Source of the DNA: a virus
Strand: one strand, 5' to 3'
Virus record (IMG/VR): IMGVR_UViG_3300032265_000800
Span: 1 to 25,739 of that record
Length of the DNA: 25,739 nucleotides
The translations under genes were made by a program, and so were the position numbers. This document shows positions 1,276-25,739 of the stretch, piece by piece. Under the pieces are notes generated by a model that saw nothing but the letters and a program-made list of their open reading frames with translations, was not told where the DNA came from and made no database searches. Numbering within the stretch: position 1 is the first letter of the stretch; each line of letters opens with the position of its first letter.

Positions 1276-2442
1276 ATGGCAAGCAATCAAATAAATCCGA
1301 CCCTAACTCTTGGTACACAACCAACTGGGGAACTCGCAGCACTTGACAGTTCTGTTGGCAGCTCAGGATATAGTTATGAAATCTTAAGGTATCCTTATGA
1401 TTTAGGTAACTCAGACACTCAACATTATGTAATGTTTTACATTAATCTTCCACAAACTTCCAAATATGACGTTTCGGAGACTGTTGGTGCTAACATGTCA
1501 GCATCTTCTGCTAATTATGATCTAGTGCATAATCTGACGCAAAGTAATGGTGGTCTTATATCTGGAAAATCAGCAGCAGCAGCTACTCTTGCTCAGGGTG
1601 CGGTGGCGACTATACAAGGTACATTAGCTGCAGCTGGAGGGAAACCACAATCCCAGTCCGCAGGTGCTCAAACCATAGAACTTGGAGTTGCAGCAGCTAT
1701 TGCAACTCAAATTAATTTAAAGCCTAAGTTAAACAGAATAAAGAGTGCTATAGCAATTTACATGCCCGATACTATAATTTCTGATTTTAGACATGACTAT
1801 CAGACAGTTAGTGTAACTGAGGCACTCGGCAAAGTTGGAAACATGGCGGCAATGGCTGCTGGTGGGGCTAATGTTATAAGTGCTGGAATAGAAAAGCTCT
1901 CTGGGGGTAATGCCAACTTTGGAGATGCTGTTAAAAAATCTCCAAGTAGCATGGAAGCTCTGGGTCAAGTAGCTAACATGACTGGTGCAGTTGGTGCTGG
2001 ATTCACAGACCTTGCTGTTAAGAGTGCAGGCTTTGCTGTTAACCCACAGGTTGAACTTCTATACAAGGGTACTGATAATAGATCGTTTGTTTTTGAATTT
2101 AAATTTCAACCAAGATCAAAAGCAGAAGCACTAGCGATTAGAAAGATTATCTATACTTTTAGAAGATTCGCTGCGCCAGAATTAGCTGCAGACTCTATGA
2201 CTAATGGAAGATATTTTATTCCTCCTGGACAGTTTGATATCAAATTCAAATTTAACAATACGGATAATACTAATTTGTTTAACATATCAACTTGTGTGTT
2301 AACTGGAATATCAACAAATTATTCTAGTGCTGGTCAATTCGCAACCTTTGATGATGGTATGCCTGTTGAGATTTCTCTACAGTTACAATTTAAAGAAGCA
2401 GATATTATCTACAGAGATCTTATCGAGCAATTTGGATACTAA
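1276..2442 (+). CDS. 48: Baseplate tail tube cap gp48
   Basis: A 388-residue protein, close to T4 gp48 (about 364). The N-terminal region YEILRYPYDLGNSDTQHYVM at residues 34-53, followed by FYINLP, is typical of gp48 in marine T4-like phages. A long Ala/Gly-rich middle (about 95-230, including ALGKVGNMAAMAAGG) is followed by a C-terminal tube-fold-like block with FKFQPRSKAEALAIRKI, GRYFIPPGQFDIKF and FDDGMPVEISLQLQFKEA. In T4 gp48 polymerises on the baseplate with gp54 and nucleates the tail tube. The ATG follows the late promoter at 1237-1244 and has a weak AGGT about 12 nt upstream. It is the first gene of the rightward operon and is separated from gp53 by two bases. Confidence 0.85.
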   Translation: MASNQINPTLTLGTQPTGELAALDSSVGSSGYSYEILRYPYDLGNSDTQHYVMFYINLPQTSKYDVSETVGANMSASSANYDLVHNLTQSNGGLISGKSAAAATLAQGAVATIQGTLAAAGGKPQSQSAGAQTIELGVAAAIATQINLKPKLNRIKSAIAIYMPDTIISDFRHDYQTVSVTEALGKVGNMAAMAAGGANVISAGIEKLSGGNANFGDAVKKSPSSMEALGQVANMTGAVGAGFTDLAVKSAGFAVNPQVELLYKGTDNRSFVFEFKFQPRSKAEALAIRKIIYTFRRFAAPELAADSMTNGRYFIPPGQFDIKFKFNNTDNTNLFNISTCVLTGISTNYSSAGQFATFDDGMPVEISLQLQFKEADIIYRDLIEQFGY

Positions 2443-2444
2443 TA

Positions 2445-3380
2445 ATGAGATACTTCCAAAAATTTCATACCATGCCTTATACATTCGATCCAACTGGATT
2501 CAGTTTCTTTAATGTTGTGAATATATTTGAGAGAGTAAATCTCATTGCTCCAGTAATGAATAATATCAATATCTATTATGAATATGATTTTAAAGATAGT
2601 GATAACTTAGAAACTATCGCATACAAATATTATGGAGATACTAATAGATTTTGGATTTTAATGTTAGCGAATAATTTAATGGATGTATTTTATGATTTAC
2701 CATTAAAAGATAATCAATTCGCTAATTATCTCGTCAGCAAATATGGATTAACTTCTGATGTCGGAAATGACACACAGATAATTTCAAGAACAAGATCTAC
2801 AATAGATCACTACGAAAAGACAATGACCAATACCACTTTGGCTGGAAATGGGGTATCGACTTCAAATACGACCACTGCGTATTATGCAAATAATGTTTAT
2901 GCAATTGATGGGATAACTTCAATATCAACCCCAGTTTCCCTTCCAACAATATTAAATCCGACAATAACACTATCGAGCACAAGTACACAGATTGGTGGTT
3001 ATTTCTCTAGAGTAATGATATATAAGGGTGGATCGGGATATACATTACCACCAACATTAACGATAAATGGAACAAATACTGGCGGCAGCAATGCGAATGC
3101 ATATCCAGTTTTAACTAGTGGTGTCATAACTTCTGTTGTTATAGATAACCCAGGATCACTGTATAGTGATGCCTCAATAACTGTTACTGGCGGTGGTGGG
3201 AGCGGAGCTTCATTATCACCATTCATACAACAGATAATGACTGTGACGTCAAAAATTAAATTAACTGCTGTCTCAATTTATGAATCTGAAAGTAACAAAA
3301 ATGAAGATAAAAGAACAATTCATATAATTAAGAAAGACTTTGCGCCTCAAATTGAGGCTGAGCTAAAATCCATTCTATAA
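2445..3380 (+). CDS. 53: Baseplate wedge subunit gp53, enlarged by a glycine-rich insertion
   Basis: A 311-residue protein against about 196 in T4. Residues 42-100 (NIYYEYDFKDSDNLETIAYK..., YYGDTNRFWILMLANN) match the conserved gp53 segment 'LANAIYGNPQLYWVLLMCNDN' and the family's LysM-like wedge domain. The C-terminus (KNEDKRTIHIIKKDFAPQIE) matches the family's ending. Between them, residues about 110-265 are extra, including a GGSGY-type module at 190-261. In T4 gp53 ties neighbouring wedges together to close the six-fold baseplate. The start is ATG 2445; MPYTFDPTGF at 2472 is an alternative, as neither has a clear ribosome-binding site. It follows gp48 by two bases, so translation may be coupled. 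Confidence 0.88.
   Translation: MRYFQKFHTMPYTFDPTGFSFFNVVNIFERVNLIAPVMNNINIYYEYDFKDSDNLETIAYKYYGDTNRFWILMLANNLMDVFYDLPLKDNQFANYLVSKYGLTSDVGNDTQIISRTRSTIDHYEKTMTNTTLAGNGVSTSNTTTAYYANNVYAIDGITSISTPVSLPTILNPTITLSSTSTQIGGYFSRVMIYKGGSGYTLPPTLTINGTNTGGSNANAYPVLTSGVITSVVIDNPGSLYSDASITVTGGGGSGASLSPFIQQIMTVTSKIKLTAVSIYESESNKNEDKRTIHIIKKDFAPQIEAELKSIL
3012..3227 (+). repeat. GGSGY glycine-rich module, copy in gp53 (residues 190-261)
   Basis: The module has the order hydrophobic strand - KGGSGYTLPPTLTI - GTNTGGSNANAYPVL - GVITSVVIDNPG - ITVTGGGGSGASLSPFI. The copy in gp6 (7945-8166) has the same order: NPGYGYASAPTITI, GKGANAYPII, GQVTSVVVDNPG, IAVSGGG, VLTPIL. At the DNA level the two share TAACTTCTGTTGT and a GCxAATGCxTATCCA stretch, which points to duplication within the genome or shared descent. 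Confidence 0.75.
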
Positions 3381-11919: not shown

Positions 11920-13530
11920 ATGAGCAGTATATTAACAATTAAAGAAAGGGTTGATCTGGCGACGGATATTATTCAAGATTGGTCTGATGAAGCAAATACT
12001 TATGTTGGTGTTGGCAGATTACAGAACTGGTCAACGAATGACTTAATTATACCCTCACCAAACAACACAATTGATACTATTAATAGTATCTTCGATAACC
12101 TTTTTGCAATTAAGAAAGTGTCAGCTGCTGATATGTGTGGAGTAGTCCCAAGAGTCGATTGGATTCCTAATGTAGTTTATGATGCATACGATAACACAGT
12201 TGACATGTACAGTTATATGGATGTGGAACAGATATCTAATGGTACAATTACGACATATACGACCAATAATCAGATTGTAAGTTCTAATTCAACATTCAAT
12301 TATGATTTTGCCACTGGTTCATTTATTTCTTATTATAATCCAAGTACGAATATTACTGAGATGAAAGAGGTCGTCAGTATTAACGCGGCTGGCGATTTTA
12401 TGACAGTAAACTCTAAGCCAAGTTTTGCGACCACAACGAACACTTATTACAATACATCAAACACATACCCAAACTATGCACAGAATTTTTATGTTAGAAA
12501 TTCTTATGATCAAGTCTATAAATGTCTGTTTAATAATAATGGTGCGCTATCAATCGAAATGCCACTAATTACGATTGGTGGACAATTACCAGAAAATCGA
12601 TGGATTGAGACTGGTGACCTATACAAGTGGAAGTATATGTACACGATCCCTTCTGGACTGAAGCAAAAATTCTTCACCACTCAGTGGATGCCTGTGAGCA
12701 AAGACCCAGTTGTGACAGCTGCGGCTGTAGATGGCTCTATTGACATTATTAAAATTGCTAATGGCGGAACTGGATATAACAGTAACGTTGCCTGCAGTAA
12801 TGCGACTATCGTTACTGTAACGGGTAATGGTGAGGGAGCTAATGTTTCCGCATATGTCAGTTCTTCAGGAACAATTACAGACGTGACTATTTTAAGTGGT
12901 GGTTCTGGGTACACCTATGCAAATATTACCGTTACCCCAGGATTAACTGGGAAGTCTGCAAATCTCATTCCAGTAATAAGCCCACATGGTGGTAATGGTG
13001 GGAATCCAGCCTATGAGCTTGGTGCCACTGGTTTTATGCTTTCCGTTTCTTTGGATGCAGACGAACATGGTACTATCCCTACTACTGCGGTCGGTGGCTC
13101 TGGAATATTTGACTATCACCAGATTTCAATAATAAAAGACCCACGTCTAAGTTCAAATACTTCTAATATTGCTTCTGCGATAAACTATAACACTACAACA
13201 AAATTAACAATGACCCCATTTGCACCAGTAGACTTCCAAACTGGGGATATAGCATTCCAAGGCTTAACGTATGCCAATGCATATTTTACTTCCTCCGTTA
13301 TTAATTCTGATTCGATCAATAGAATAGTTTACCTAAATAATATTCGAGGAACATTCAACTCTAACGACACCATTAGAACGGTAAATACTGGAGCGAATGT
13401 CGCCCCAACTAGTTTGGTTCATTCTGACATACAAATATATACTGGAGACATTTTGTATATTCAAAATAGAGCGGCAGTCGATAGATCGCCTAACCAAACA
13501 GAACAAATTAAATTGATCATACAGGTATAA
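11920..13530 (+). CDS. 8: Baseplate wedge subunit gp8, enlarged by a glycine-rich insertion
   Basis: A 536-residue protein against 334 in T4. Residues 50-95 (NTIDTINSIFDNLFAIKKVS..., MCGVVPRVDWIPNVVYDAYD) and the stretch NFYVRNSYDQVYKCLFNNNG, with RWIETGDLYKWKYMYTIP, are signature gp8 segments. The C-terminal part with YTGDILYIQNR and SPNQTEQIKLIIQ is also the family ending. gp8 is a dimer on the outer wedge that connects gp7 to gp10-type proteins. Residues 275-353 hold a GGSGY-type module placed between the two gp8 domains. AGGA sits 9 nt before the ATG and overlaps the gp7 stop. Confidence 0.93.
   Translation: MSSILTIKERVDLATDIIQDWSDEANTYVGVGRLQNWSTNDLIIPSPNNTIDTINSIFDNLFAIKKVSAADMCGVVPRVDWIPNVVYDAYDNTVDMYSYMDVEQISNGTITTYTTNNQIVSSNSTFNYDFATGSFISYYNPSTNITEMKEVVSINAAGDFMTVNSKPSFATTTNTYYNTSNTYPNYAQNFYVRNSYDQVYKCLFNNNGALSIEMPLITIGGQLPENRWIETGDLYKWKYMYTIPSGLKQKFFTTQWMPVSKDPVVTAAAVDGSIDIIKIANGGTGYNSNVACSNATIVTVTGNGEGANVSAYVSSSGTITDVTILSGGSGYTYANITVTPGLTGKSANLIPVISPHGGNGGNPAYELGATGFMLSVSLDADEHGTIPTTAVGGSGIFDYHQISIIKDPRLSSNTSNIASAINYNTTTKLTMTPFAPVDFQTGDIAFQGLTYANAYFTSSVINSDSINRIVYLNNIRGTFNSNDTIRTVNTGANVAPTSLVHSDIQIYTGDILYIQNRAAVDRSPNQTEQIKLIIQV
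12742..12978 (+). repeat. GGSGY glycine-rich module, copy in gp8 (residues 275-353)
   Basis: Reads IIKIANGGTGYNSN, VTGNGEGANVSAYV, SSGTITDVTILSGGSGYTYA, NITVTPG and SANLIPVIS: the same order of elements as the gp53 and gp6 copies, with a longer first loop. Confidence 0.68.
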
Positions 13531-13532
13531 AC

Positions 13533-16500
13533 ATGGATTTTTCAATTGCACCATATTACGACGATTTTCAATCCACAAGTGGCGCAAAATACAATAATTA
13601 CATGCGCATCCTGTTCAAACCAGGATATGCAGTTCAGGCTAGAGAACTAACGCAGATTCAGTCTATTCTACAGAATCAGATTAAGTCCCTCGGCGATTTT
13701 GTTTTGCAGAATGGTTCACCTGTTTCCGGTGGGCATATAACATTTGATGTTTCTTCTAAATCCATTCAAATTCAGTCGACTCAGTCTGGTATACCGATCA
13801 CAATATCTGATTTTAATAATCAGCTAATCATTAATGCGACTGGCTCTGCCATTGCTAGAGCTAAAGTTACTGCAGTAGATACATCGACATCAAGCGCAGT
13901 TTCTGCTGGTTCTCTTATTTTAAAATATTTAACTTCTGATGAATTTGCCGATGGAGATGTAATTCAGATCGCAAACGGCAATCAAGAAAAGGCAACTCTA
14001 TTAACATCTAATGCACTTTCTAATTGCGCAACAGTAAGTATCAATGATGGTGTATTTTATGTTGATGGGTATTTCGTATATGTTCCATCTCAAACAATTG
14101 TTCTCAGTTCACTATCATCAAATGTTTCCTGCACCGTTGGTCTTCAAATTAATGATGCCATAGTCGACTATACTGCTGATGCTGCACTATTAGATCCTGC
14201 TCAGGCTTCATTCAATTATCAGGCTCCTGGTGCTGACAGATACCAGTTCAATCTAACACTAACATATAGACCAATCGGATCAACGGATACCAGTGCGTAT
14301 TTTGAATTATTGACTATTGAGAACGGAGTTGTAACAAGTCAGGTTGACTATGCGCTCTTGGGTGGAATTCAAGACACTCTTGCTGCAACTGTTTACGACC
14401 AGTCTGGTGATTTTACTGTTAGACCATTCCGAGTTTCTGCGTCAGAAAATACAGCAAACCAAAGTACATTCTTACTCAACATTGAACCAGGAAAGGCTTA
14501 TGTTAAGGGTTATGAATTCGAAACGATAGGCACAGTTAAAATTGCTGACCTAAAGGCTCAAACCACAGAAAGAAATTCTGGTTATGATTTATCCCTATTT
14601 TACGGCAATTATGTAATTACCAACAATGTACATTCAGGAAATATTGCAGACTTTAATATTCAGAATTTTGGTAGCTTAGATTTACATACTGTTCCTCAAG
14701 CATATATTAACACTAAGAGCTCAGCCGCATATTCAAATACTAAGATTGGTACTGCTAAAATTAGAGATCTTGAGCCATCAGGTGATGGTGTAACATATTA
14801 TGCTTATCTAACCGCAATTAATACGGCTCCGCTTGTAGTAAATTCTTCAGGATTCAGTCCAAATCAATACTACGCAAACGTTCCTCTATTAACGACCCAG
14901 ACAGGAGCATTCAATAATGTAACTGTTTCTGTGGTTTCGGGAAACTCTAGTGGTGATGTTCGAACAATTATTGCATCAACATCAGATGGTAACGGAAATA
15001 CTTCTTTACAAGTTAATAACCCATTCACAGATCAAATTGATTCTACATCAGTCTTATCTTTAAATTTTGGAATTAAAGATGTTGATTCTCTAGTAGTCTC
15101 TCCAACAATTGTTCTTGATGGAACTGCCGCAAATAATTACGTGTATTCCAACAACTATTTTGCTGGTATGGATATTTCCGCAAAAGGAAAATCTGCTGTT
15201 GGTGGGAATACCAATATATTCTCAACCGATTATAATAGTTTAATATATCCACTTCCTCAGACTTGGATTGCTCAATCAACTACCGCATTACCTTCAATGA
15301 ATAATATGAGCTACCTCACGAAAAAGGTGCTCACTGGTGTAACATTTGCAACCTCTAACTCATATTTTGCAACTTCAGGAACTCAATTAAAGGGAACAAC
15401 TTCTGAATCGTATACTTTCGGATTTGGTTCTGGTGGCTCTGTACCAGATATTTTAGCAAATGAAACTGTTACGATTTTGGTTACGAATAAACAGTCATCA
15501 AATCTAACAAATGGTTCTATTATTGTATTCAACCACAATACTGTCGCTAATGGCAATTCGATCTATCAAAATAGTCAGAACTCAATTACTGCAATCGTAA
15601 GTTCTAGTGGTGCATTTACCGCAGATATCATTTTAACAATTCAAGAAAATAGTGTTGAGGTTCCTCAGAATAATTTACTGAGAACAAAAACGCGTGTTGG
15701 TAATACTGCAAACATAACATTAATTTCGACAGACTCACCAGCTAATGGTGGCTATGCGATTATTGGTGCACCTGGTGGCACATATTTTGATTCTTCAAAT
15801 GGATATGTTTGGATTCCAGCATCTAGCGTCGTTAATGTTCCAGGAAAACCACAAAGTCTATATGTACCTGACGTGTTAAGTGTGATTAGAATTTATGATT
15901 CGGGAAATCCAAGTTACCCTCCGAATTCGGTTAATGCTATTGATGTAACAAATAGTTATTTACTTAATGGTGGTCAAAATGACAACTACTATGACCATGG
16001 ATATTTACTACTGAAGGAAGGATACAATCCTCCTCGTGGTCAAATTGTTGTTATGTTAACGTGTTATTTGCATTCAACAAATCCTGGATTCTTTAGTGTT
16101 GACTCATATCCAGCATTTGATTATAATGAGGAATATATCCCACACTATAGCTCTAAACAGAATGGCGTATTCTCTTTGAGAGATGCTATTGATTTTAGAC
16201 CAACAAGAGCTCCTGGATATTCGTCAAATGTTCAACCTTTTACTTTAATAACTGGAACCAATGGTGTATATTTGCCTAATCCGAATTATGCAATGCCATT
16301 GTCATACAGTTATTATGTTCCAAGAATTGATAAACTGACTTTAACTAAAGATAGACAGTTCAATATTATCTATGGAACACCAGGATTAAATCCACAAACT
16401 CCTGCAGACGCAGATGATGCGATGACTCTTTATATTATAACCGTGCCACAATACACAAGTAATACTGCAGCTATTGGTCTAAAATATATTGATCATCGTG

Positions 16501-18155
16501 GATATACGATGAAAGATATTGGTACTCTGGATAAGAGAATTACTAATCTAGAGAGCTACACAACTTTAAACTCTCTACAGCAAAAAGCAACTAACCAGAC
16601 TATAACATATCAGAATGGAACGACAGCAAAAGATATCTATGGTGTAATTACGGATAATTTTGCAGACTTTAGTGTTGCTGACACTACAAGTGTAGATTTA
16701 CTATCAAAAATTCAGAATTCGACACTAACTCCAATTCAAGAAATTACGCCAATAAACTTTAACTTCTTATCATCAACATCTGGTAATTATCAGATTCATC
16801 ATAAAACTTTAACTGTTGGATATACCGAAACTCCAGCGATTACTCAGAATACAGTTACTAGAGGAATTGTTGTTCAGCCATTCTCATTCGGCCAGTTTAA
16901 AGGTCAGATGAAACTGAAACCAGAGTCAGATTTCTTCGTAAGTCAAAATCTAGTTCCTGTTGTAATTACTGCTCCTGATGAGCCAGTAATTCAGCCTGCA
17001 TATACTGTTGGTGCTAATGGTGTTGCAGTTCCAGTAGCAACATCCCCAGTAACTCCAGTAATTGTAATAAATCCACTGTTACTTCCAATTGCAAATATTA
17101 CTGAGGTTCCTACCCTATTCACTCAAACATTAACTTCGAGCGGTGGAACATCTCCATATGTTTATACAGTAATTACAGGATCATTGCCTCCAGGTCTTTC
17201 ATTAGGATCATCAACTGGAATTATAACTGGATACCCAACATATCCAGGAAGATATCATTTCTCTATAAAATCAACAGATGTTAATGGCTTAACTAGTGCG
17301 CAAGATTTTTACATGACTGTAAACATGGTTTATCCAACAATACTAGTAAGTCCATTGTCAGTTTCTGGTGCAACCTCAAATGTTGCATACTCAACAGTTA
17401 ACTTCACTGCTTCTGGTGCCTATACTCCATACACATACTCAGTAACTAGTGGTTCGCTTCCAACTGGATTGTCATTAAGTTCTGGTGGTGCGTTAACAGG
17501 AACTCCAACCTCGCAAGGAAATTATAACTTTACCGTAACTGCTAAAGACGTCAATTCATATAATGGTTCTTCGAGCTACACAATGACAGTTTCTCCACCA
17601 ACAATCAGTATAACCCCTTCAACATTACCGAGTGGAATTGGTTCTACAGTATACACAACAACAGCAATTACTGCTTCTGGTGGTAATGCTCCATATACAT
17701 ATACTGTATATACTGGTTCTTTACCTCCTGGATTAACATTAAGTTCTGGCGGTTCATTATCAGGAACCCCGACTTCTAATGGTACATATAACTTCCATGT
17801 GAAGGCGACAGATTCTAATAGTGCTATTGGTATTATTGCATATACAGTAGCAGTTGCTGCACCAACGATTAGCATAAGCCCATCTTCCCTATTGGTTGGA
17901 ACTGCTGAGGCTGCTTACTCTGGTGCTGCAAATACCGTATCTGCATCTGGTGGTTCTGGCGTATATACATATGCAGTAACCAATGGATCTTTACCGAGTG
18001 GTCTATCGATGGCATCAACTGGAATTATTAGTGGGACGCCGACAGTGGCTGGTACATTTGGTATTACAGTTACTGCAACTGACGCGAATGGGTTTATTGG
18101 ATCGAAAGTTTATTCCGTTCTGATAAATGCTCCAACAATAACATTAAGTCCTTAA
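13533..18155 (+). CDS. DUF4815-type virion protein fused to four Ig-like (He_PIG) domains
   Basis: A 1540-residue structural protein. The N-terminus (YYDDFQ..., YMRILFKPGYAVQARELTQI, QSILQNQI) and later landmarks (NIEPGKAYVKGYEFETIG, PRIDKLTLTKDRQFNI, HRGYTMKDIGTLDKRI) are those of the DUF4815 family found after gp8 in marine T4-like phages. Its place suggests a peripheral baseplate or fibre-attachment role; exact function is not known. Residues 1180-1265, 1266-1354, 1355-1442 and 1443-1532 are four tandem putative-Ig domains with SGG-xxPYxYxVxxGSLPxGLxL and GTPTxxGxYxFxVxxxDxxG. The last eight residues, APTITLSP, are the first strand of a fifth domain whose body is encoded by the next gene. 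AGG lies 8 nt before the ATG; gp8 ends two bases upstream. Confidence 0.85.
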   Translation: MDFSIAPYYDDFQSTSGAKYNNYMRILFKPGYAVQARELTQIQSILQNQIKSLGDFVLQNGSPVSGGHITFDVSSKSIQIQSTQSGIPITISDFNNQLIINATGSAIARAKVTAVDTSTSSAVSAGSLILKYLTSDEFADGDVIQIANGNQEKATLLTSNALSNCATVSINDGVFYVDGYFVYVPSQTIVLSSLSSNVSCTVGLQINDAIVDYTADAALLDPAQASFNYQAPGADRYQFNLTLTYRPIGSTDTSAYFELLTIENGVVTSQVDYALLGGIQDTLAATVYDQSGDFTVRPFRVSASENTANQSTFLLNIEPGKAYVKGYEFETIGTVKIADLKAQTTERNSGYDLSLFYGNYVITNNVHSGNIADFNIQNFGSLDLHTVPQAYINTKSSAAYSNTKIGTAKIRDLEPSGDGVTYYAYLTAINTAPLVVNSSGFSPNQYYANVPLLTTQTGAFNNVTVSVVSGNSSGDVRTIIASTSDGNGNTSLQVNNPFTDQIDSTSVLSLNFGIKDVDSLVVSPTIVLDGTAANNYVYSNNYFAGMDISAKGKSAVGGNTNIFSTDYNSLIYPLPQTWIAQSTTALPSMNNMSYLTKKVLTGVTFATSNSYFATSGTQLKGTTSESYTFGFGSGGSVPDILANETVTILVTNKQSSNLTNGSIIVFNHNTVANGNSIYQNSQNSITAIVSSSGAFTADIILTIQENSVEVPQNNLLRTKTRVGNTANITLISTDSPANGGYAIIGAPGGTYFDSSNGYVWIPASSVVNVPGKPQSLYVPDVLSVIRIYDSGNPSYPPNSVNAIDVTNSYLLNGGQNDNYYDHGYLLLKEGYNPPRGQIVVMLTCYLHSTNPGFFSVDSYPAFDYNEEYIPHYSSKQNGVFSLRDAIDFRPTRAPGYSSNVQPFTLITGTNGVYLPNPNYAMPLSYSYYVPRIDKLTLTKDRQFNIIYGTPGLNPQTPADADDAMTLYIITVPQYTSNTAAIGLKYIDHRGYTMKDIGTLDKRITNLESYTTLNSLQQKATNQTITYQNGTTAKDIYGVITDNFADFSVADTTSVDLLSKIQNSTLTPIQEITPINFNFLSSTSGNYQIHHKTLTVGYTETPAITQNTVTRGIVVQPFSFGQFKGQMKLKPESDFFVSQNLVPVVITAPDEPVIQPAYTVGANGVAVPVATSPVTPVIVINPLLLPIANITEVPTLFTQTLTSSGGTSPYVYTVITGSLPPGLSLGSSTGIITGYPTYPGRYHFSIKSTDVNGLTSAQDFYMTVNMVYPTILVSPLSVSGATSNVAYSTVNFTASGAYTPYTYSVTSGSLPTGLSLSSGGALTGTPTSQGNYNFTVTAKDVNSYNGSSSYTMTVSPPTISITPSTLPSGIGSTVYTTTAITASGGNAPYTYTVYTGSLPPGLTLSSGGSLSGTPTSNGTYNFHVKATDSNSAIGIIAYTVAVAAPTISISPSSLLVGTAEAAYSGAANTVSASGGSGVYTYAVTNGSLPSGLSMASTGIISGTPTVAGTFGITVTATDANGFIGSKVYSVLINAPTITLSP
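17070..18152 (+). repeat. Array of four Ig-like domains plus an orphan first strand
   Basis: Units of 86-90 residues begin at codons 1180, 1266, 1355 and 1443 of the upstream protein. Each has PTIxxSP, ASGGxxPYTY, GSLPxGL, GTPT and a final VxAxDxxG element (the He_PIG/PF05345 pattern). The array ends after APTITLSP, which would start a fifth unit. The copies are diverged in DNA, sharing only short runs such as AACAGGAACTCCAAC. Confidence 0.85.
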
Positions 18156-18173
18156 TTTGAGAGAATACGAATG
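18153..18173 (+). other. In-frame stop, ribosome-binding-like stretch and restart splitting an Ig-like domain
   Basis: A TAA at 18153-18155 is followed in the same reading frame by TTT GAG AGA ATA CGA and an ATG at 18171. GAGAG lies about 7 nt before that ATG and can serve as a ribosome-binding site. Removing these 21 bases would join ...PTITLSP to TALTNATVSTPYTQ..., which fits the repeat consensus exactly. The upstream and downstream genes are therefore one ancestral array divided by a small intercistronic insertion. Confidence 0.75.
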
Positions 18174-20090
18174 ACAGCATTAACAAACGCAACAGTCAGT
18201 ACTCCATATACGCAAGTTATAACACCAAGTGGTGGTATTTCTCCGTATACCTATTCTATAGTTTCAGGTACTGGTTCTCTACCAACAGGATTATATTTTA
18301 CTCCAAATGGTGCGGCAACTGGAGCGACTACAACAATACAGGGTACTCCAACTGGTGCTGTGGGCACATACGCATTTACATTTAGCGTTAGTGATTCTTA
18401 TAATTTTAGTGTACAAAAAATATATACAATTCAATTAGGTTCTCCAACAATTATCATCACTCCTGGGGTATTGCCAAATGCTAAAGTTGGGCAATTATAC
18501 ACTCAAACATTTGTTGCAAATACACCTACGGGCAGTTACAATTTTACATTTGCTAATACTGGAGCATTACCAGAAGGTCTAACGCTAACATCATCGACTG
18601 GTGTTCTAAGTGGAACCCCGACAACAGCTGAGTCTAATACATTCACTATCACCGCAAGTAATAGTCAATATTCTTATTCTAATACCACACCCAACTACAC
18701 TATTGTGACTGCAGCATCACCACCAACAATTATTGTTTCTGGTTCACCAGGATATGGGGTTTGGGGTCAAGTTTATCCAGGAGCAACAATAACTGCTTCT
18801 GGAGGAACTGCACCATATACATTCGCAATCTCATCTGGTGCATTGCCAGCAGCATTGACGCTGTCGTCGGGTGGTGTAATATCAGGAACAGTTGCCAAAG
18901 CGGATGCTGATGATTATGGGACTGGAACAGATCCTGATGATATTGGTGCATACCAATTTACTGTATCGGCAACGGATGCTAATGGGTATACTGGAACGAA
19001 TTCTTTTCAAATTTCACTTAATAATCCAACTATAACTATTGCTGCTCCGACATCAACTGCAACCGTTGGTACTGCATACTCTAGTTCTATTTCTGCTAGC
19101 GGTGGATACACACCATATACTTACAAAATAGCAAGCGGATCTTTACCAAGTGGACTCACTAAGGGTTCTTCTGGTGCAATAACAGGAACTCCAACTCGTA
19201 ATGGAGTGTATACTTTCACGGTAACTGCAACAGACCAATATGGATATAGTGCAACATCTTCTTCTTTTACTATTACTGTCGGTGCTGGAACGTTAGCTCT
19301 GAGTACACTATCAGCAACTACTGGAACTGGTAATGTTGCATATACTGGAACCTTTAGTGCCTCGGGTGGTTCTGGTAATTATTCATATGCAATTACATCA
19401 GGATCTTTACCAACAGGAATTACTAACAGTGGTACTGGTACTATTTCTGGGACTCCACAGGCTACAGGTACATTTAATTTTACTGTTACTGCTACAGATA
19501 CGACATATGCCACTACTGTCTCTAGAGCATATACATTAACTATTGTTCCACCAGGAATAACTGTACTCCCAACAGTCATAACATCTGGACAATTTGAAGT
19601 CGCATATACGCAAACCATGAGTGCTACTGGCGGTACTGCGCCATATACATTCGCGGTAACAGGTAATCATTTACCTCAAGGCTGGCAAATGAGCACAGCT
19701 GGTGTTATAAATGGAACAAGTGTTGGTCCTGGCTGGGATGCATATATTTTATCTCAGCATCCGAATGGATACCAAAATTTCAACTTTACTATAACAGCAA
19801 CTGACAAGTATGGTTATCAAGGATCTAGAGCTTATGATCACACAATGAATGCTCCGACAATAACTTTAAGTCCAGCAAGTTCATTCCCAGCAACAATATC
19901 TGCTAGTGGTGGCGTTGGACCATATGTTTATTCAGTAAGTTCCGGAACATTACCTAATGGCTGGTCACTAAATGGTACCACTGGTGCAATTAGCGGTACT
20001 GCTCCATCAACTGGCGGAACATACAACTGGACAGTACAAGCGGTTGACTCTAATGGATTCGCTGGGTATCGTAGTTACACTACAACTCTA
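18171..20090 (+). repeat. Array of seven Ig-like domains
   Basis: Continuation of the array at 17070-18152, making about eleven units in total. The unit length varies from 80 to 102 residues because of loop insertions in domains 3 and 6 of this gene. Domain 7 has a shortened first half (ASSFPATISASGG). Confidence 0.82.
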
Positions 20091-20474
20091 CCTAATACTA
20101 ATCGACCAGGACCACAAGGTGGTCAAGTATCAGCTGCTGGCGGTGGTGGTCCTGTTGGGGCAATACTAACTGGCACAACTACTTCTGCTGGTGGCTTACC
20201 GACAACTTATACTGCTTCTGGTGGAGCTGCTGGTGCTGCTGGAGTTCAAACGACAGTCACTGTTGCGCAGCCAACGGGAACTTCTCAAACGACATCAGGT
20301 GTAACGACGGTTTTAGTATCGCCAGTCTCTACTGGCGTTGTGACTACGCAAGCCAGTAACACAAATACTGCTTGCACTACAACCTCAACCACAGCTAGTG
20401 GAACTGGATCATCAATACAAGTTAGTGGTGGTGGGTATGTTAATCCGAGCCTTGGTGGTCCGAGCGGGAAATAA
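18171..20474 (+). CDS. Ig-like (He_PIG) repeat virion protein, seven domains plus Ser/Thr/Gly-rich tail
   Basis: A 767-residue protein in the same frame as the preceding gene, 15 bases after its stop. Domains span about 1-90, 91-182, 183-284, 285-372, 373-460, 461-560 and 561-640. Each keeps ASGG-xxPYTY, GSLPxG and GTPxxxGxYxFTVxATD. The first domain lacks the PTIxxSP strand that begins all others. Domain 3 has an Asp-rich loop at 245-257 (DADDYGTGTDPDD) and domain 6 a longer insertion near 517-533. Residues about 642-767 are low-complexity Thr/Ser/Gly/Ala. Phage Ig-like domains usually decorate capsid, baseplate or fibres and bind carbohydrate weakly; here the context suggests a surface accessory of the baseplate. 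No signal peptide or membrane segment is seen. Translation is probably coupled to the upstream gene. Confidence 0.82.
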   Translation: MTALTNATVSTPYTQVITPSGGISPYTYSIVSGTGSLPTGLYFTPNGAATGATTTIQGTPTGAVGTYAFTFSVSDSYNFSVQKIYTIQLGSPTIIITPGVLPNAKVGQLYTQTFVANTPTGSYNFTFANTGALPEGLTLTSSTGVLSGTPTTAESNTFTITASNSQYSYSNTTPNYTIVTAASPPTIIVSGSPGYGVWGQVYPGATITASGGTAPYTFAISSGALPAALTLSSGGVISGTVAKADADDYGTGTDPDDIGAYQFTVSATDANGYTGTNSFQISLNNPTITIAAPTSTATVGTAYSSSISASGGYTPYTYKIASGSLPSGLTKGSSGAITGTPTRNGVYTFTVTATDQYGYSATSSSFTITVGAGTLALSTLSATTGTGNVAYTGTFSASGGSGNYSYAITSGSLPTGITNSGTGTISGTPQATGTFNFTVTATDTTYATTVSRAYTLTIVPPGITVLPTVITSGQFEVAYTQTMSATGGTAPYTFAVTGNHLPQGWQMSTAGVINGTSVGPGWDAYILSQHPNGYQNFNFTITATDKYGYQGSRAYDHTMNAPTITLSPASSFPATISASGGVGPYVYSVSSGTLPNGWSLNGTTGAISGTAPSTGGTYNWTVQAVDSNGFAGYRSYTTTLPNTNRPGPQGGQVSAAGGGGPVGAILTGTTTSAGGLPTTYTASGGAAGAAGVQTTVTVAQPTGTSQTTSGVTTVLVSPVSTGVVTTQASNTNTACTTTSTTASGTGSSIQVSGGGYVNPSLGGPSGK

Positions 20475-20524: not shown

Positions 20525-23500
20525 ATGGCAACACCAATAATAACAAATGCTGGTCCACAAAAAATTGATGTGTCCATCGTTCCATACATGCGATCGGGGC
20601 AAGTTGAGGTTATCACAAATAATCTACGCCCAGGAAAGGGTGCATATTATTGGTTTGATCAGACTCCAGTCAATCAATTCGTCCAGACAGCTTCTGTTTT
20701 GAATGTTAAAAATGTATCTTCTGTTAATATTTCTCAGGGCGATGGTATTTACTGTCAGAACACCCATGCTTATGCAACTGTTATTTCAGTTTCACCAAAT
20801 ACCGCGCCAAATGTAACTACAATCTATATTAATGAAAATTATTTGACTCTAAATTTATATCCTGTTGGTGCGAATGTAGTTTGGAATTCTAGCAATACTA
20901 GTGACTATAAACCAGGCGATATTATTTTCCAGATCATTAATGTTCCTGCAAATGGTAATACATCCCTAAGCGCGACGTTCATGGGCATGGTTGAGTATTG
21001 GAATCCAGTAAATGCTTCTCTTAGCGTATCTCCTATCTCTGGAACTATTTTTGCCAATTCAATTTCTCAATTGACGGTTAATGCAAATAGTGTTATCTAT
21101 AAAATGACGGATAATCAAATTGCATATACTCTATCTGTTGTTGGTGCAAATGGCGGCACTACTGTTCCTAATTTCCCGAATGCTAATGCAATTATTTTCA
21201 CATCACAGACCTCGCCGAATTTGTTATCGACAAATACAACAAGTGCATATGTCCAAAATCACGGTTTGATAATTAATGCAAATACTTTAGATACGACATA
21301 TACTCATATAAATTTACCATCAGCTGACTATGCTGGAACTCGCGCGGCAAATACTCTGTATATTGTTAGTGGAAGTGGCATTGGTTCTAATTCTCAAATT
21401 ACCTCAGCTTCTGATAACACAGTAATAACTTCTAACCCACTTTATGTTAATGGTACTTCTGCTTGGACAATTGGTACTCCGCAAGTAGACCATAATGGTA
21501 TGCTCGCTGGTATATTCACAATTCCAGAAACTGCTACTTTTAACTTTTTAAGCGGTCAAAGAACATTAACAATTACAGATACTGCAGATAGTGTTGATAG
21601 CGTTAATGGTACGATGAGAGCTCAGGCATATTATACTGCTTCTCCATCAATATTCAATACAAGTGACTTTAGAGGAACACCTACTCTTAAATGTGTAGCG
21701 GTTCAGCCTCCAGGAAGTGCTCCAGTTGCTCCAGTAGACCCATCATCTAGAGGGTCAGTCACATCAACGCATGCGCTAGTTGCTAATACTTCGGTTGCTA
21801 ATACTGGAACTTATCTATCAGATAATGATCCTCTAGCTCAAACCTTTACGACACCAGCACCAAAAAGCGTTAAACAAAATTATGGAATTTTTGCAACATC
21901 AGTTGATCTTTGGTTCAAGAATGTACCAACAGGAAGTTCTCCACAACTTCCTGTAATTTTAAGTCTCGTTACGACCAATAATGGGTTCCCAACATCAACG
22001 ATTCTTTCACAGGTTGCTGTGCAATGCGCTGATGTTAAAGTATCAAATGTTCCAGATAGTGCTAACATCGGTTCTTTGATTGCAAACAATTCGACGGCAA
22101 CAAGATTTACTTTCCCTGATCCAGTTTATCTTGATGCATCAACTCAATATGCTATTGTTGTTCATTCAGACTCTCCAGACTACCAATCATTCGTCTCTGA
22201 TATTGGTTCATATAACATATCATATGGTGCAAATAGTTCAGTTACTGTTGGTGGTTCTCAGCAGACTAATATTCTATACACTTACCTAACTCAGCCTGAA
22301 GCATTCACGGTTTCTGATGTTCTAGTTTTTGGTGCAGCTAAAGGTGTTACGAATCCAACCACAAGAGATAGTATCGTCCAAAAAGCACTACAAACATACA
22401 GATCTACAAATCCTGGGGATGCAGTTAATGCTGCTCAGTCTTCAATTACATATTATGCAGTAGATCCGACTACTGGTAATGTGTATCAGATGACTAATAT
22501 TATTCCAACGTCGACGCAAAGTAAAGTTTCTGCGCCACCTAATGTTGGATCATTATATTTGGCTCAGAATTCTTCAACATGGAAACCACTAAAGAATCAA
22601 ATGCTCATGTTTGTACTGAATAGAGCAGTATTTAATACAACACCGACACAGTTAAAATTTAATGTTTCTCCTCCAGTAAATACTATCGCGGTAGATTCTG
22701 TCGTATTGAACTCTGATGATATTGTATTCCCATCATCAAGTTTAACATATGCTTTAGAAACAACATATTTGAGTAATCAAGTATCTCCTCCTGCATTTAA
22801 GCTGAACCCAACAGCTAAGATCTTAACTCCTGGGGTAGTTTATAATTTTAATCAAGATTATGAAGCATTATCCATAAGCAATACTAGAGAGAAATATATT
22901 CTTCCTGGAAACGCTAATACAGTCATAGTTAATGTTACAATGCAGACAAATGATCCTGATGTAAGTCCAATATTCAACATGGAAAGATTCAGTGCTCTTG
23001 TTGGAACTAATATAATTTCCCCAGGATATATACTTCCTCCGCATGTGTCAATATCTAATTCAGTTAATGTAATATCCAAAATTTCTTCGACATATAACGT
23101 TGAAACTTTTGTTGTGACCATTGATCCTCCAACTTCACTTGTCAATAATGTCCAAGCAACAGCAAATATTACTGCCGCGCAAATTTCCTCAAATGGAAAT
23201 ATCACTGGGATAAACATGATAAATCTTGGTGCTGGATATATACAAACACCAAATATTACTATTACATCTAATGCTGTTGCTATTGCAACTGGCGATGCTT
23301 TAGCGAACAGTAATGTTATTCTTAACTTAACAACTTCTTATGGAAGCTGGGATAATGGATTACAGGTTAGTGGTCCAGGAATTCCTAATGGAACTCTCGT
23401 TCTTTCTTATAATTCAACCCAGTTGAATCTTTCTCAGAATGTGACACAAACTGCTAGTGCGATAACAATAACTGGAAATACGGTTCTTGCTAATACGACA

Positions 23501-23965
23501 GTTTCTGGTGAGAATAGAAAATACAACGGTAATGGCGTTGCTCGATATCAAACTCGTGAAATCATTCTTGCTAATGGGTTTGCTTCTGGCGACTTGAGGG
23601 TATTTGTTGATGGTATTATTCCTAATGGTACTGCTGTAAATGTATACTATAAGGTTCTTTCTGGTCATGATTCAGATACAATCCTAGATAAGAATTGGCA
23701 GCTGATGACAGCTGTCAGTAGTGTTGTAAATTCCCCAGATCATAATACTCCAATTGAGATTGCTTACGCTCCAAGTCCTCTTGTAAATGGACTACCGAGC
23801 GGAACTTTATCTTATGTTGAATATTCGTCAGATGGTATTCCTACGACCTATCCACTTGGAGGAACATTCCAGTCGTTCCAAGTTAAGATTGTAATGATCT
23901 CTGACGATCCGACTGATGTTCCTAAGATAATAGGATTGAGAGCTGTTGCATTACCGCCAGGATAA
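20525..23965 (+). CDS. Large virion protein with DPLAQTF/lectin-like domain, at the gp10-like position
   Basis: An 1146-residue protein. The N-terminus (DVSIVPYMRSGQVEVITNNL, RPGKGAYYWFDQTPV) is typical of the structural proteins that accompany DUF4815 proteins in marine T4-like phages. Residues about 436-600 carry NDPLAQTFTTPAP, ATSVDLWFKNVP, FTFPDPVYLDASTQYAIVVH and SPDYQSFVSDIG, a jelly-roll-like module found in many such virion proteins. The C-terminal region includes a GGSGY-like element at about 890-917 (NGNITGINMINLGAGY, PNITITS) and a final beta domain with REIILANGFASGDLRVFVDG and FQSFQVKIVMISDDPTDVPK, typical of wedge or pin proteins that end in 'xKI-R-xAL'. It probably sits on the baseplate edge and anchors fibres; the exact T4 equivalent is uncertain. 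GGGA precedes the ATG by 6 nt. Confidence 0.78.
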   Translation: MATPIITNAGPQKIDVSIVPYMRSGQVEVITNNLRPGKGAYYWFDQTPVNQFVQTASVLNVKNVSSVNISQGDGIYCQNTHAYATVISVSPNTAPNVTTIYINENYLTLNLYPVGANVVWNSSNTSDYKPGDIIFQIINVPANGNTSLSATFMGMVEYWNPVNASLSVSPISGTIFANSISQLTVNANSVIYKMTDNQIAYTLSVVGANGGTTVPNFPNANAIIFTSQTSPNLLSTNTTSAYVQNHGLIINANTLDTTYTHINLPSADYAGTRAANTLYIVSGSGIGSNSQITSASDNTVITSNPLYVNGTSAWTIGTPQVDHNGMLAGIFTIPETATFNFLSGQRTLTITDTADSVDSVNGTMRAQAYYTASPSIFNTSDFRGTPTLKCVAVQPPGSAPVAPVDPSSRGSVTSTHALVANTSVANTGTYLSDNDPLAQTFTTPAPKSVKQNYGIFATSVDLWFKNVPTGSSPQLPVILSLVTTNNGFPTSTILSQVAVQCADVKVSNVPDSANIGSLIANNSTATRFTFPDPVYLDASTQYAIVVHSDSPDYQSFVSDIGSYNISYGANSSVTVGGSQQTNILYTYLTQPEAFTVSDVLVFGAAKGVTNPTTRDSIVQKALQTYRSTNPGDAVNAAQSSITYYAVDPTTGNVYQMTNIIPTSTQSKVSAPPNVGSLYLAQNSSTWKPLKNQMLMFVLNRAVFNTTPTQLKFNVSPPVNTIAVDSVVLNSDDIVFPSSSLTYALETTYLSNQVSPPAFKLNPTAKILTPGVVYNFNQDYEALSISNTREKYILPGNANTVIVNVTMQTNDPDVSPIFNMERFSALVGTNIISPGYILPPHVSISNSVNVISKISSTYNVETFVVTIDPPTSLVNNVQATANITAAQISSNGNITGINMINLGAGYIQTPNITITSNAVAIATGDALANSNVILNLTTSYGSWDNGLQVSGPGIPNGTLVLSYNSTQLNLSQNVTQTASAITITGNTVLANTTVSGENRKYNGNGVARYQTREIILANGFASGDLRVFVDGIIPNGTAVNVYYKVLSGHDSDTILDKNWQLMTAVSSVVNSPDHNTPIEIAYAPSPLVNGLPSGTLSYVEYSSDGIPTTYPLGGTFQSFQVKIVMISDDPTDVPKIIGLRAVALPPG

Positions 23966-24185: not shown

Positions 24186-25739
24186 ATGGCAAACGCAAAT
24201 ATAGGTCAGATTAGCACAGCAAATACCTTTAACGATTGGAGGGTGGCTACAAACAATCTGGCTAATGGTTATAACCAGTTAAGAAATAGTACCTTCGTCA
24301 AAGATACTGGCGACTTCCGTATGGAAAATGGAGTCGTGTATCTTGATGGTACATCTGGTGATCAATTGGTCAGTGCTGGTGGCGTTTCCATCGCAGGACA
24401 ATTAAGCTCAACTATTCTTGTTAATAGTTCTGATGCTACAGTTCAAGGAAACCTTACTGTAAGTGGTTCAGCTAAAACTCTAAGCGTAACAAATAATACA
24501 TACACAAGAAATCTAACCGTTGCTAATGCAGCGTCAGTTGGAACGAATCTATCAGTCACTGGTAATACGACAGTCGGTGCAAACTTATCGGTATCTGGTA
24601 ATGCATCAATTGGTGCAAACTTAGCATTAACTGGTAATCTAACTGTTGGTCAAAATACCACAGTTAGCGGTAATGTTTCTATAACTGGTAATACATTAAT
24701 CTCATCAAATCTATCTGTGAGTGATAATGTTACCATCGGACAAAATACTTCGATCAGTGGAAACTTGCTTCTAACTGGTAACGCTACAATTTATTCTAAT
24801 GTTTATGTTTCTCAGAATGCAAATATTACTGGCACACTAAACGTATCTTGGCTAAATGTTTCTTCAAATATTGCTAATACTGGCAATATTATGGTAACGA
24901 TGAATACGATTACTGGCAATATAACAGTAGCCAATAATACATCAACTGCCAATCTTTCAGTTACTAAAGTTGCTAATATTGCAACTGGTAACATAGCGAC
25001 TCTAAATGTATCTAACGAAACAATTACTGGAACATTGAACGTTGCTACTGCAAACGTATCAACACTAAATGTAACTAACGAAACGATCACTGGAACATTA
25101 AATGTTGTTACTGGTAACGTGACGACTCTAAACGTATCTAACGAAACCATTACTGGAACGTTAAATGTTGTTACTGGTAACATAACTTCGTTGAATGTGG
25201 GCACTGGTAACTTAGTGACTGGTAATATAACAACCCTCAATGTCACTAATGAGACTGTTGGTACTTTAAATGTCACAAGTGAGTCTGTTGGCACTCTTAA
25301 TGTTACGACAGGCGCGACGATTGTTACCCTAAACGTGACCAATGAAACAGTTGGTACTTTAAATGTAACAACAGGCAATATTGTTTCTCTAAATTCCAGT
25401 ACTGCTAATCTAGTCACTGGTAACATCACAACTTTAAATGCTTCTAGTGCAACAATCAGTACTTTAAATGTGACCAATCAAACTGTTACTGGTTTGTTGA
25501 ATGTTGCAACAGCTAATATTACGACATTAAATGTAACCAATGAGACTGCTTTTGGTACTTTAAATGTTACCACTGGTAATATTATTAGCTTGAACGCTGC
25601 AACAGCAAATTTGGTTACTGGTAACATCACGACTTTAAATGCTTCTAGTGCGACTATTAGCACTCTTAATGTGACTAGTGAAACTATCGGAACGCTCAAC
25701 GTAACAAGTGCCACGATCGCAACGCTCAATAGTACAGGA
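24186..25739 (+). CDS. Repetitive tail fibre protein, 3' end beyond the window
   Basis: The reading frame from ATG 24186 is open for 518 codons to the last base, with no stop. Residues 1-55 (IGQISTANTFNDWRVATNNL, ANGYNQLRN, FRMENGVVYLDG) resemble the attachment head of fibres in marine T4-like phages. Residues 112-219 are strict hexapeptides with [V/I/L]xxNx[S/T]. From 273 onward the pattern changes to 10-residue units of the type LNVTxETVGT. Such repeats build thin beta-helical shafts; the receptor-binding tip should lie past the right edge. The frame is bordered on the left by the 70-residue gene. A weak GCGG lies about 10 nt before the ATG. Confidence 0.88.
   Translation, partial: MANANIGQISTANTFNDWRVATNNLANGYNQLRNSTFVKDTGDFRMENGVVYLDGTSGDQLVSAGGVSIAGQLSSTILVNSSDATVQGNLTVSGSAKTLSVTNNTYTRNLTVANAASVGTNLSVTGNTTVGANLSVSGNASIGANLALTGNLTVGQNTTVSGNVSITGNTLISSNLSVSDNVTIGQNTSISGNLLLTGNATIYSNVYVSQNANITGTLNVSWLNVSSNIANTGNIMVTMNTITGNITVANNTSTANLSVTKVANIATGNIATLNVSNETITGTLNVATANVSTLNVTNETITGTLNVVTGNVTTLNVSNETITGTLNVVTGNITSLNVGTGNLVTGNITTLNVTNETVGTLNVTSESVGTLNVTTGATIVTLNVTNETVGTLNVTTGNIVSLNSSTANLVTGNITTLNASSATISTLNVTNQTVTGLLNVATANITTLNVTNETAFGTLNVTTGNIISLNAATANLVTGNITTLNASSATISTLNVTSETIGTLNVTSATIATLNSTG
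24519..24842 (+). repeat. Hexapeptide repeat segment of the fibre (residues 112-219, 18 units)
   Basis: Units such as VGTNLS, VTGNTT, VGANLS, VSGNAS, IGANLA, LTGNLT, VGQNTT and VSGNVS follow without any slip. Asn is at the fourth place of sixteen consecutive units, residues 121 to 211. The pattern resembles the [LIV]-G-x-x-[STAV]-x hexapeptide of left-handed beta-helices. Confidence 0.8.
25002..25739 (+). repeat. Decapeptide LNV repeat of the fibre (residues 273-518)
   Basis: LN[VAS] recurs at intervals of mostly 10 or 11 residues, with three 15-residue intervals (LNVGTGNLVTGNITT, LNSSTANLVTGNITT, LNAATANLVTGNITT). A longer direct DNA repeat pairs 25338-25485 with 25536-25686, about 201 bp apart, including TAACATCACxACTTTAAATG and CTTCTAGTGC in both. 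Confidence 0.8.

Follow-up and report, generated by a model that had tools for sequence, protein, structure and literature searches.

Continuous coding regions that have been cut into neighbouring genes, with products that reassemble, are known from T4-like phages, and by analogy these 'genes in pieces' are the closest kind of system in the literature to the locus described here. They include nrdA of Aeh1, gene 43A/43B of phages 25 and 44RR, and T4 gene 60/39 (PMC2988022). The split nrdA and gene 43 products reassemble into working enzymes (ribonucleotide reductase and DNA polymerase), and the 44RR gene 43 halves are separated by untranslated intercistronic sequence only (PMC2988022). The window analysed here, a stretch of viral DNA of 25,739 nucleotides, likewise holds what was probably once a continuous coding region, now divided over neighbouring genes. 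It differs from the T4-like cases in that a baseplate structural protein is cut, the spacer is 21 bases long and carries no homing endonuclease, and the cut falls inside one repeat of ~90 residues, at a strand hinge.

At the protein level, two systems offer comparisons. Classical cadherins exchange the A* strand at the hinge between A* and A, while in the donor-strand exchange of chaperone-usher pili a strand of one chain completes the Ig-like fold of another. With classical cadherins the window shares the fold class, the A*/A hinge and the proline that ends the A* segment. However, the donor in the window comes from the C-terminus of another protein, whereas cadherins use the N-terminus of a like chain; the sequence is He_PIG and not of the cadherin family, and the strand, APTITLSP, does not contain the conserved Trp of the cadherin strand swap. 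With pili the window shares, as the first-pass annotation proposed, the notion that a strand from one chain could complete the Ig-like fold of the other. The donor, however, is a C-terminal edge strand of eight residues, the acceptor is predicted to fold alone, and no chaperone or usher was seen. As the strand is short (three residues assigned by DSSP) and the acceptor is predicted to be folded without it, the pilus comparison was not supported in the form first proposed, and cadherin A*-strand exchange is the closer analogy. A literature search combining donor strand, bacteriophage, baseplate and Ig-like domain returned nothing.

The closest solved relatives, by profile and by fold, are the cadherin-like domains of SraP (PDB 4m03, 4m00 and 4m02), which form a continuous chain in a staphylococcal adhesin, whereas the window repeat is divided over two chains. 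These were also the best structural matches to the predicted fold (4m03, Z 12.3, rmsd 5.4, 160 aligned residues over two domains), with cadherins and protocadherins among the next. The predicted fold is cadherin-like, which places the cut between A* and A. For the surrounding protein, the relatives are the VrlC/DUF4815 baseplate proteins of cyano- and pelagimyophages, in which VrlC appears to substitute for T4 gp7 (PMC7029224). These share the core and gene order of the window, but VrlC is usually a single chain of ~2000 aa without Ig repeats, whereas the window has three genes and an Ig array.

The window covers part of the baseplate operon of a T4-like myovirus. On the + strand, a baseplate wedge gp8-like protein (11920-13530; PF09215, 3e-09; phrog_438, 1.2e-77) is followed by a DUF4815/VrlC-type baseplate protein of 1540 aa (13533-18155, +; PF16075, 1.4e-50; He_PIG, 4.2e-45; phrog_358, 6.5e-184). 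The phrog_358 match to this protein spans residues 2-1146, giving a conserved core of ~1-1150, after which come four whole He_PIG repeats (17049-18128) and a lone APTITLSP strand (18129-18152, +), which by profile register is the A* strand of repeat 5 and forms the C-terminus of the first chain. The second chain, of 767 aa (18171-20474, +; He_PIG, 1.3e-67, seven stretches), comprises the remainder of repeat 5 (18171-18440), six whole He_PIG repeats (18441-20093) and a Gly/Ser/Thr-rich tail with final residues GGGYVNPSLGGPSGK; it had no match in a PHROG profile comparison. Next comes a separate gene (20525-23965, +; phrog_358 positions 1323-1743) whose product is homologous to the C-terminal half of VrlC, a protein of ~2000 aa. 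An array of eleven He_PIG repeats (four whole upstream, one split, six whole downstream) thus sits between two VrlC pieces and crosses one gene boundary. The 'seven-domain arm' originally proposed holds if the strandless repeat is counted; otherwise the arm has six whole repeats. Elsewhere in the window, a Gly-rich module of ~75 residues (profile positions ~1764-1840) occurs within 2394-3377 and 20525-23965; it recurs in several of the baseplate genes and in many relatives, in the manner of a mobile insert. The contig ends within an ORF made up of TLNVTNETI/GNITTLN repeats (24186-25739), which probably encodes a tail fibre.

Analysis of the junction showed that the first chain ends ...VLINAPTITLSP* and the second begins MTALTNATVSTPYTQ, both on the + strand and in one frame, with the second start 15 bases past the stop. 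The stretch from TAA through ATG, both included, is exactly 21 bases long, TAATTTGAGAGAATACGAATG (18153-18173, +); it consists of TAA, TTTGAGAGAATACGA and ATG, and its removal restores the repeat length. The ORFs (13533-18155 and 18171-20474) and the profile register thus bear out the first-pass annotation, which described one Ig-like repeat divided between two same-frame ORFs by a 21-base gap with TAA and ATG. Without the seven codons, the A*-to-Tyr spacing of the joined repeat is the canonical 20 residues, as found in five of the nine intact repeats with a complete A*/A segment. Scored against a profile built on the ten intact repeats of the window, the joined repeat gave 57.2 bits without the seven codons, 47.2 bits with them and 46.5 bits when the strand was absent. 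Both the joined repeat (42.0 bits) and the downstream piece (39.7 bits) belong to Pfam He_PIG (PF05345; gathering cut-off 24), the former covering profile positions 1-94 of 96 and the latter 9-94. Since the downstream piece alone starts at position 9, what the upstream tail adds is exactly the first strand that this piece lacks. When the junction was aligned to four other stretches of two repeats from the window, none of the four had residues opposite the seven codons. The tail of the first chain retains the exact A* consensus and ends right at the A*/A hinge.

The register, exact by two profiles and by alignment once the 21 bases are removed, argues for gene fission, as do the closed alternative frames and the spacer/restart configuration described below. 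Relatives were sought in 174 loci retrieved by searches, nearly all with a DUF4815 homologue. None of the 174 had an Ig array in the DUF4815 gene, and none of the near relatives among them had an intact array; a profile search of all frames of these loci found a single weak repeat, in one ORF of L161. In the nearest relative by sequence (L083, ~60%), the contig edge precedes the point where the array would begin. The DUF4815 and P0003-like parts are fused in 43 loci and lie side by side as two genes in a further group, to which the nearest relatives belong. Near relatives have no gene between DUF4815 and its P0003-type partner and no Ig repeats there, so the extra gene of the window belongs with the array. 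C-terminal GGG tails, which the tail of the second chain resembles, occur in six of 19 DUF4815 proteins of relatives (L001, L002, L018, L022, L080 and L100, all with a separate DUF4815 gene), against 3.7% of all ORFs. The motif lies 14-18 residues from the C-terminus in L001, L002, L022 and L080 and 34-38 in L018 and L100; in the window, GGG is found 15 residues from the end of the second chain and is absent from the first. This suggests that the second chain bears the original DUF4815 C-terminus and that the two genes were formerly one.

Searches of viral contigs for the same junction found none, and the Ig array with its split is known from one contig only. Searches for relatives of the array gave only weak generic matches in viral contigs; among phages, the only matches were short ones to major tail proteins of Gordonia phages. 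The closest cellular repeats found were 49% identical and lie in a Mesorhizobium metagenome-assembled genome (L195:5001-5777); the array may have come from repeats of this type.

Taken together, we consider it about an even call that the gene underwent fission within a repeat and that its two chains re-join at the baseplate with A* docking as one contact. The ancestral gene would have been a single frame encoding the VrlC/DUF4815 core, eleven cadherin-like He_PIG repeats and the Gly-rich tail. An insertion of 21 bases with a stop, a start and a ribosome-binding site between them would have interrupted this frame in repeat 5, at its A*/A hinge. Ribosomes would halt at TAA and restart 15 bases on, presumably by coupled translation, producing two chains; equal molar amounts of the two are something we infer from the 15-base spacing only. 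The first chain would be anchored in the baseplate through its VrlC core, with a free A* strand at its C-terminus, and the second would be a seven-repeat arm whose first repeat lacks A*. The two most likely re-join at the baseplate, where the A* strand would dock, as one of several contacts, against the exposed edge of the repeat that opens the second chain; re-joining would depend on the strand in part. Docking of the APTITLSP strand in trans is itself a somewhat weaker proposition, which we put a little short of even. A split Ig-like joint, in which the donor A* plugs the strandless repeat and the receptor-contacting arm is attached or shed non-covalently, is more tentative again.

Structure predictions bear on the docking step. 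In an AlphaFold model of repeat 4 and the joined repeat 5, with TAA read as Tyr (pLDDT 86), residues 95-97, within APTITLSP, form a strand matching residues 5-7 of repeat 4, though a single covalent chain and an alignment of sibling repeats favour such docking by construction. The docked strand is a short edge strand, with three residues in strand by DSSP, and its affinity in trans may therefore be low. Six spacer residues (100-105) are disordered, with pLDDT below 50. When the second chain was predicted alone, its first repeat was folded (pLDDT mostly 83-88, with one block of 70) at a confidence near that of the neighbouring repeat, but the A strand (2-7) and the end of strand B (18-20) were largely not assigned as strands. 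The model suggests that the missing strand is helpful but not essential to the downstream repeat. The proposal of strand complementation in trans thus fared unevenly: the repeat is split at an inter-strand hinge and the strand docks in the joined model, but the downstream repeat is predicted to fold alone, at the cost of strand A and the end of B. This goes some way towards the outcome that the first-pass annotation had itself named as refuting, a downstream domain complete without the strand.

The same prediction supports a different reading, in which the gene was indeed split but the strand is now vestigial: the second chain would fold without A* and be held by other contacts, through its Gly-rich tail or VrlC partners, or would be a free or decorating arm, while the APTITLSP tail dangles. 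We regard this as a credible though not favoured outcome. It agrees with the last repeat of the window (19851-20093), which lacks most of its A segment and retains its family match, so that a shortened A is tolerated. It agrees also with two unrelated phage ORFs of ~145 aa that end PTITVTP and PTITITP with no Ig sequence beyond the stop (L175:586-609 and L193:5031-5054), and which are possibly relics of a lost Ig domain; of 20 further ORFs found with the A* consensus at their C-terminus, none had an Ig piece after it. However, a strand that had long been useless would be expected to drift, whereas the tail still matches the A* consensus exactly and ends at the hinge. Moreover, the identical octapeptide (DNA 21/24 identical) opens the intact last repeat, where it serves as A*.

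An ATG in frame within six codons, with anti-SD pairing at least equal to that of the junction, follows 1.8% of the in-frame codons of the window. If translated, the spacer would encode FERIR, three-fifths Glu/Arg, and such a composition was found in none of 997 five-residue windows of Ig arrays. Pairing with the anti-SD at the second start is modest (-2.9 kcal/mol) and inside the range of the window's other starts, the start region has no strong folding, and no further start codon in frame occurs before a GTG at 18360, by which point most of the repeat has passed. The spacer looks like a ribosome-binding site rather than Ig coding sequence, and the boundary is likely real. The sole likeness to another gene boundary (TAATTT...AATAC at 20472) was equalled or beaten by 9% of window stretches, and copying of the spacer from such a boundary was rejected. 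Translational bypass was likewise rejected, as the gap holds no codon matching the take-off CCT. Fusion by programmed frameshift, a frequent route to Ig extensions in phages, would need an alternative frame open into the Ig domain. Both other frames hit stops within a few codons of the junction, and readthrough of the stop is thus the sole way to fuse the chains.

A second cut of this kind was found in a relative, L021 (13040-13110), where the conserved DUF4815 core is interrupted by TAAGGGAGTTTAAG-ATG. The first ORF ends DDFLASIE-TAA, followed by GGGAGTTTAAG and the ATG of MALGPYTEKTPLEL; unlike the same-frame pair of the window, the second ORF is in another frame. When joined, the halves align to relatives, in which this region is continuous, with a one-residue gap. 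A search for a similar public phage record covering the cut found none, so that this case, too, rests on one contig. L021 thus carries a stop-RBS-start of its own, independent of that in the window and placed within a conserved domain of this protein family, and intradomain fission has probably occurred twice in the DUF4815/VrlC family. The gene appears to be split recurrently: DUF4815 and P0003 are fused in 43 loci and separate elsewhere, and in L021 the core is cut.

These observations also bear on whether the stop reflects a misassembly, a point error or a dead allele, the phage then making a single chain with a seven-residue loop at the A*/A hinge. The array is on a single contig, TAA is one base from several sense codons, and the read-through chain is predicted to fold, yet we judge an error unlikely: the loop, xFERIRM, is unlike anything in the arrays (0/997 windows), it would hold an RBS-like stretch and an ATG by chance (1.8%), and L021 has the same layout independently. 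Regulated low-rate readthrough of TAA, giving a few particles a fused long arm akin to minor frameshift Ig products, is very improbable. Both sides share a frame, and the fused product would have an intact repeat with an added loop; but UAA is as a rule the tightest stop codon, folding of the stop region is no better than in shuffles (z 1.27), frameshift is excluded, and the ATG and RBS would be unneeded.

Relative to known genes in pieces, the proposed fission at this locus is new in being minimal, intradomain, in a structural protein and apparently repeated in one family. If the chains re-join through the shared repeat, they would form a natural split Ig-like tag and catcher in the virion, and a route to an exchangeable baseplate arm that keeps its place in the particle. 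Even with an idle strand, two intradomain fissions suggest that a minimal stop-RBS-start is a tolerated means of cutting structural genes. A missing strand or a short adjoining gene should therefore not be taken immediately for an annotation error.

Two further observations concern DUF4815/VrlC genes elsewhere. One DUF4815 protein (L089:9989-14563) has a C-terminal domain that, judged by eye, is Hint/intein-like (AGGGGGAGCPDPSM ... EGFLSHN). In another locus (L016:12150-12260), the reading frame of the fused VrlC gene shifts close to the C-terminal end (profile 1848/1849), likely through a sequence error or another break.
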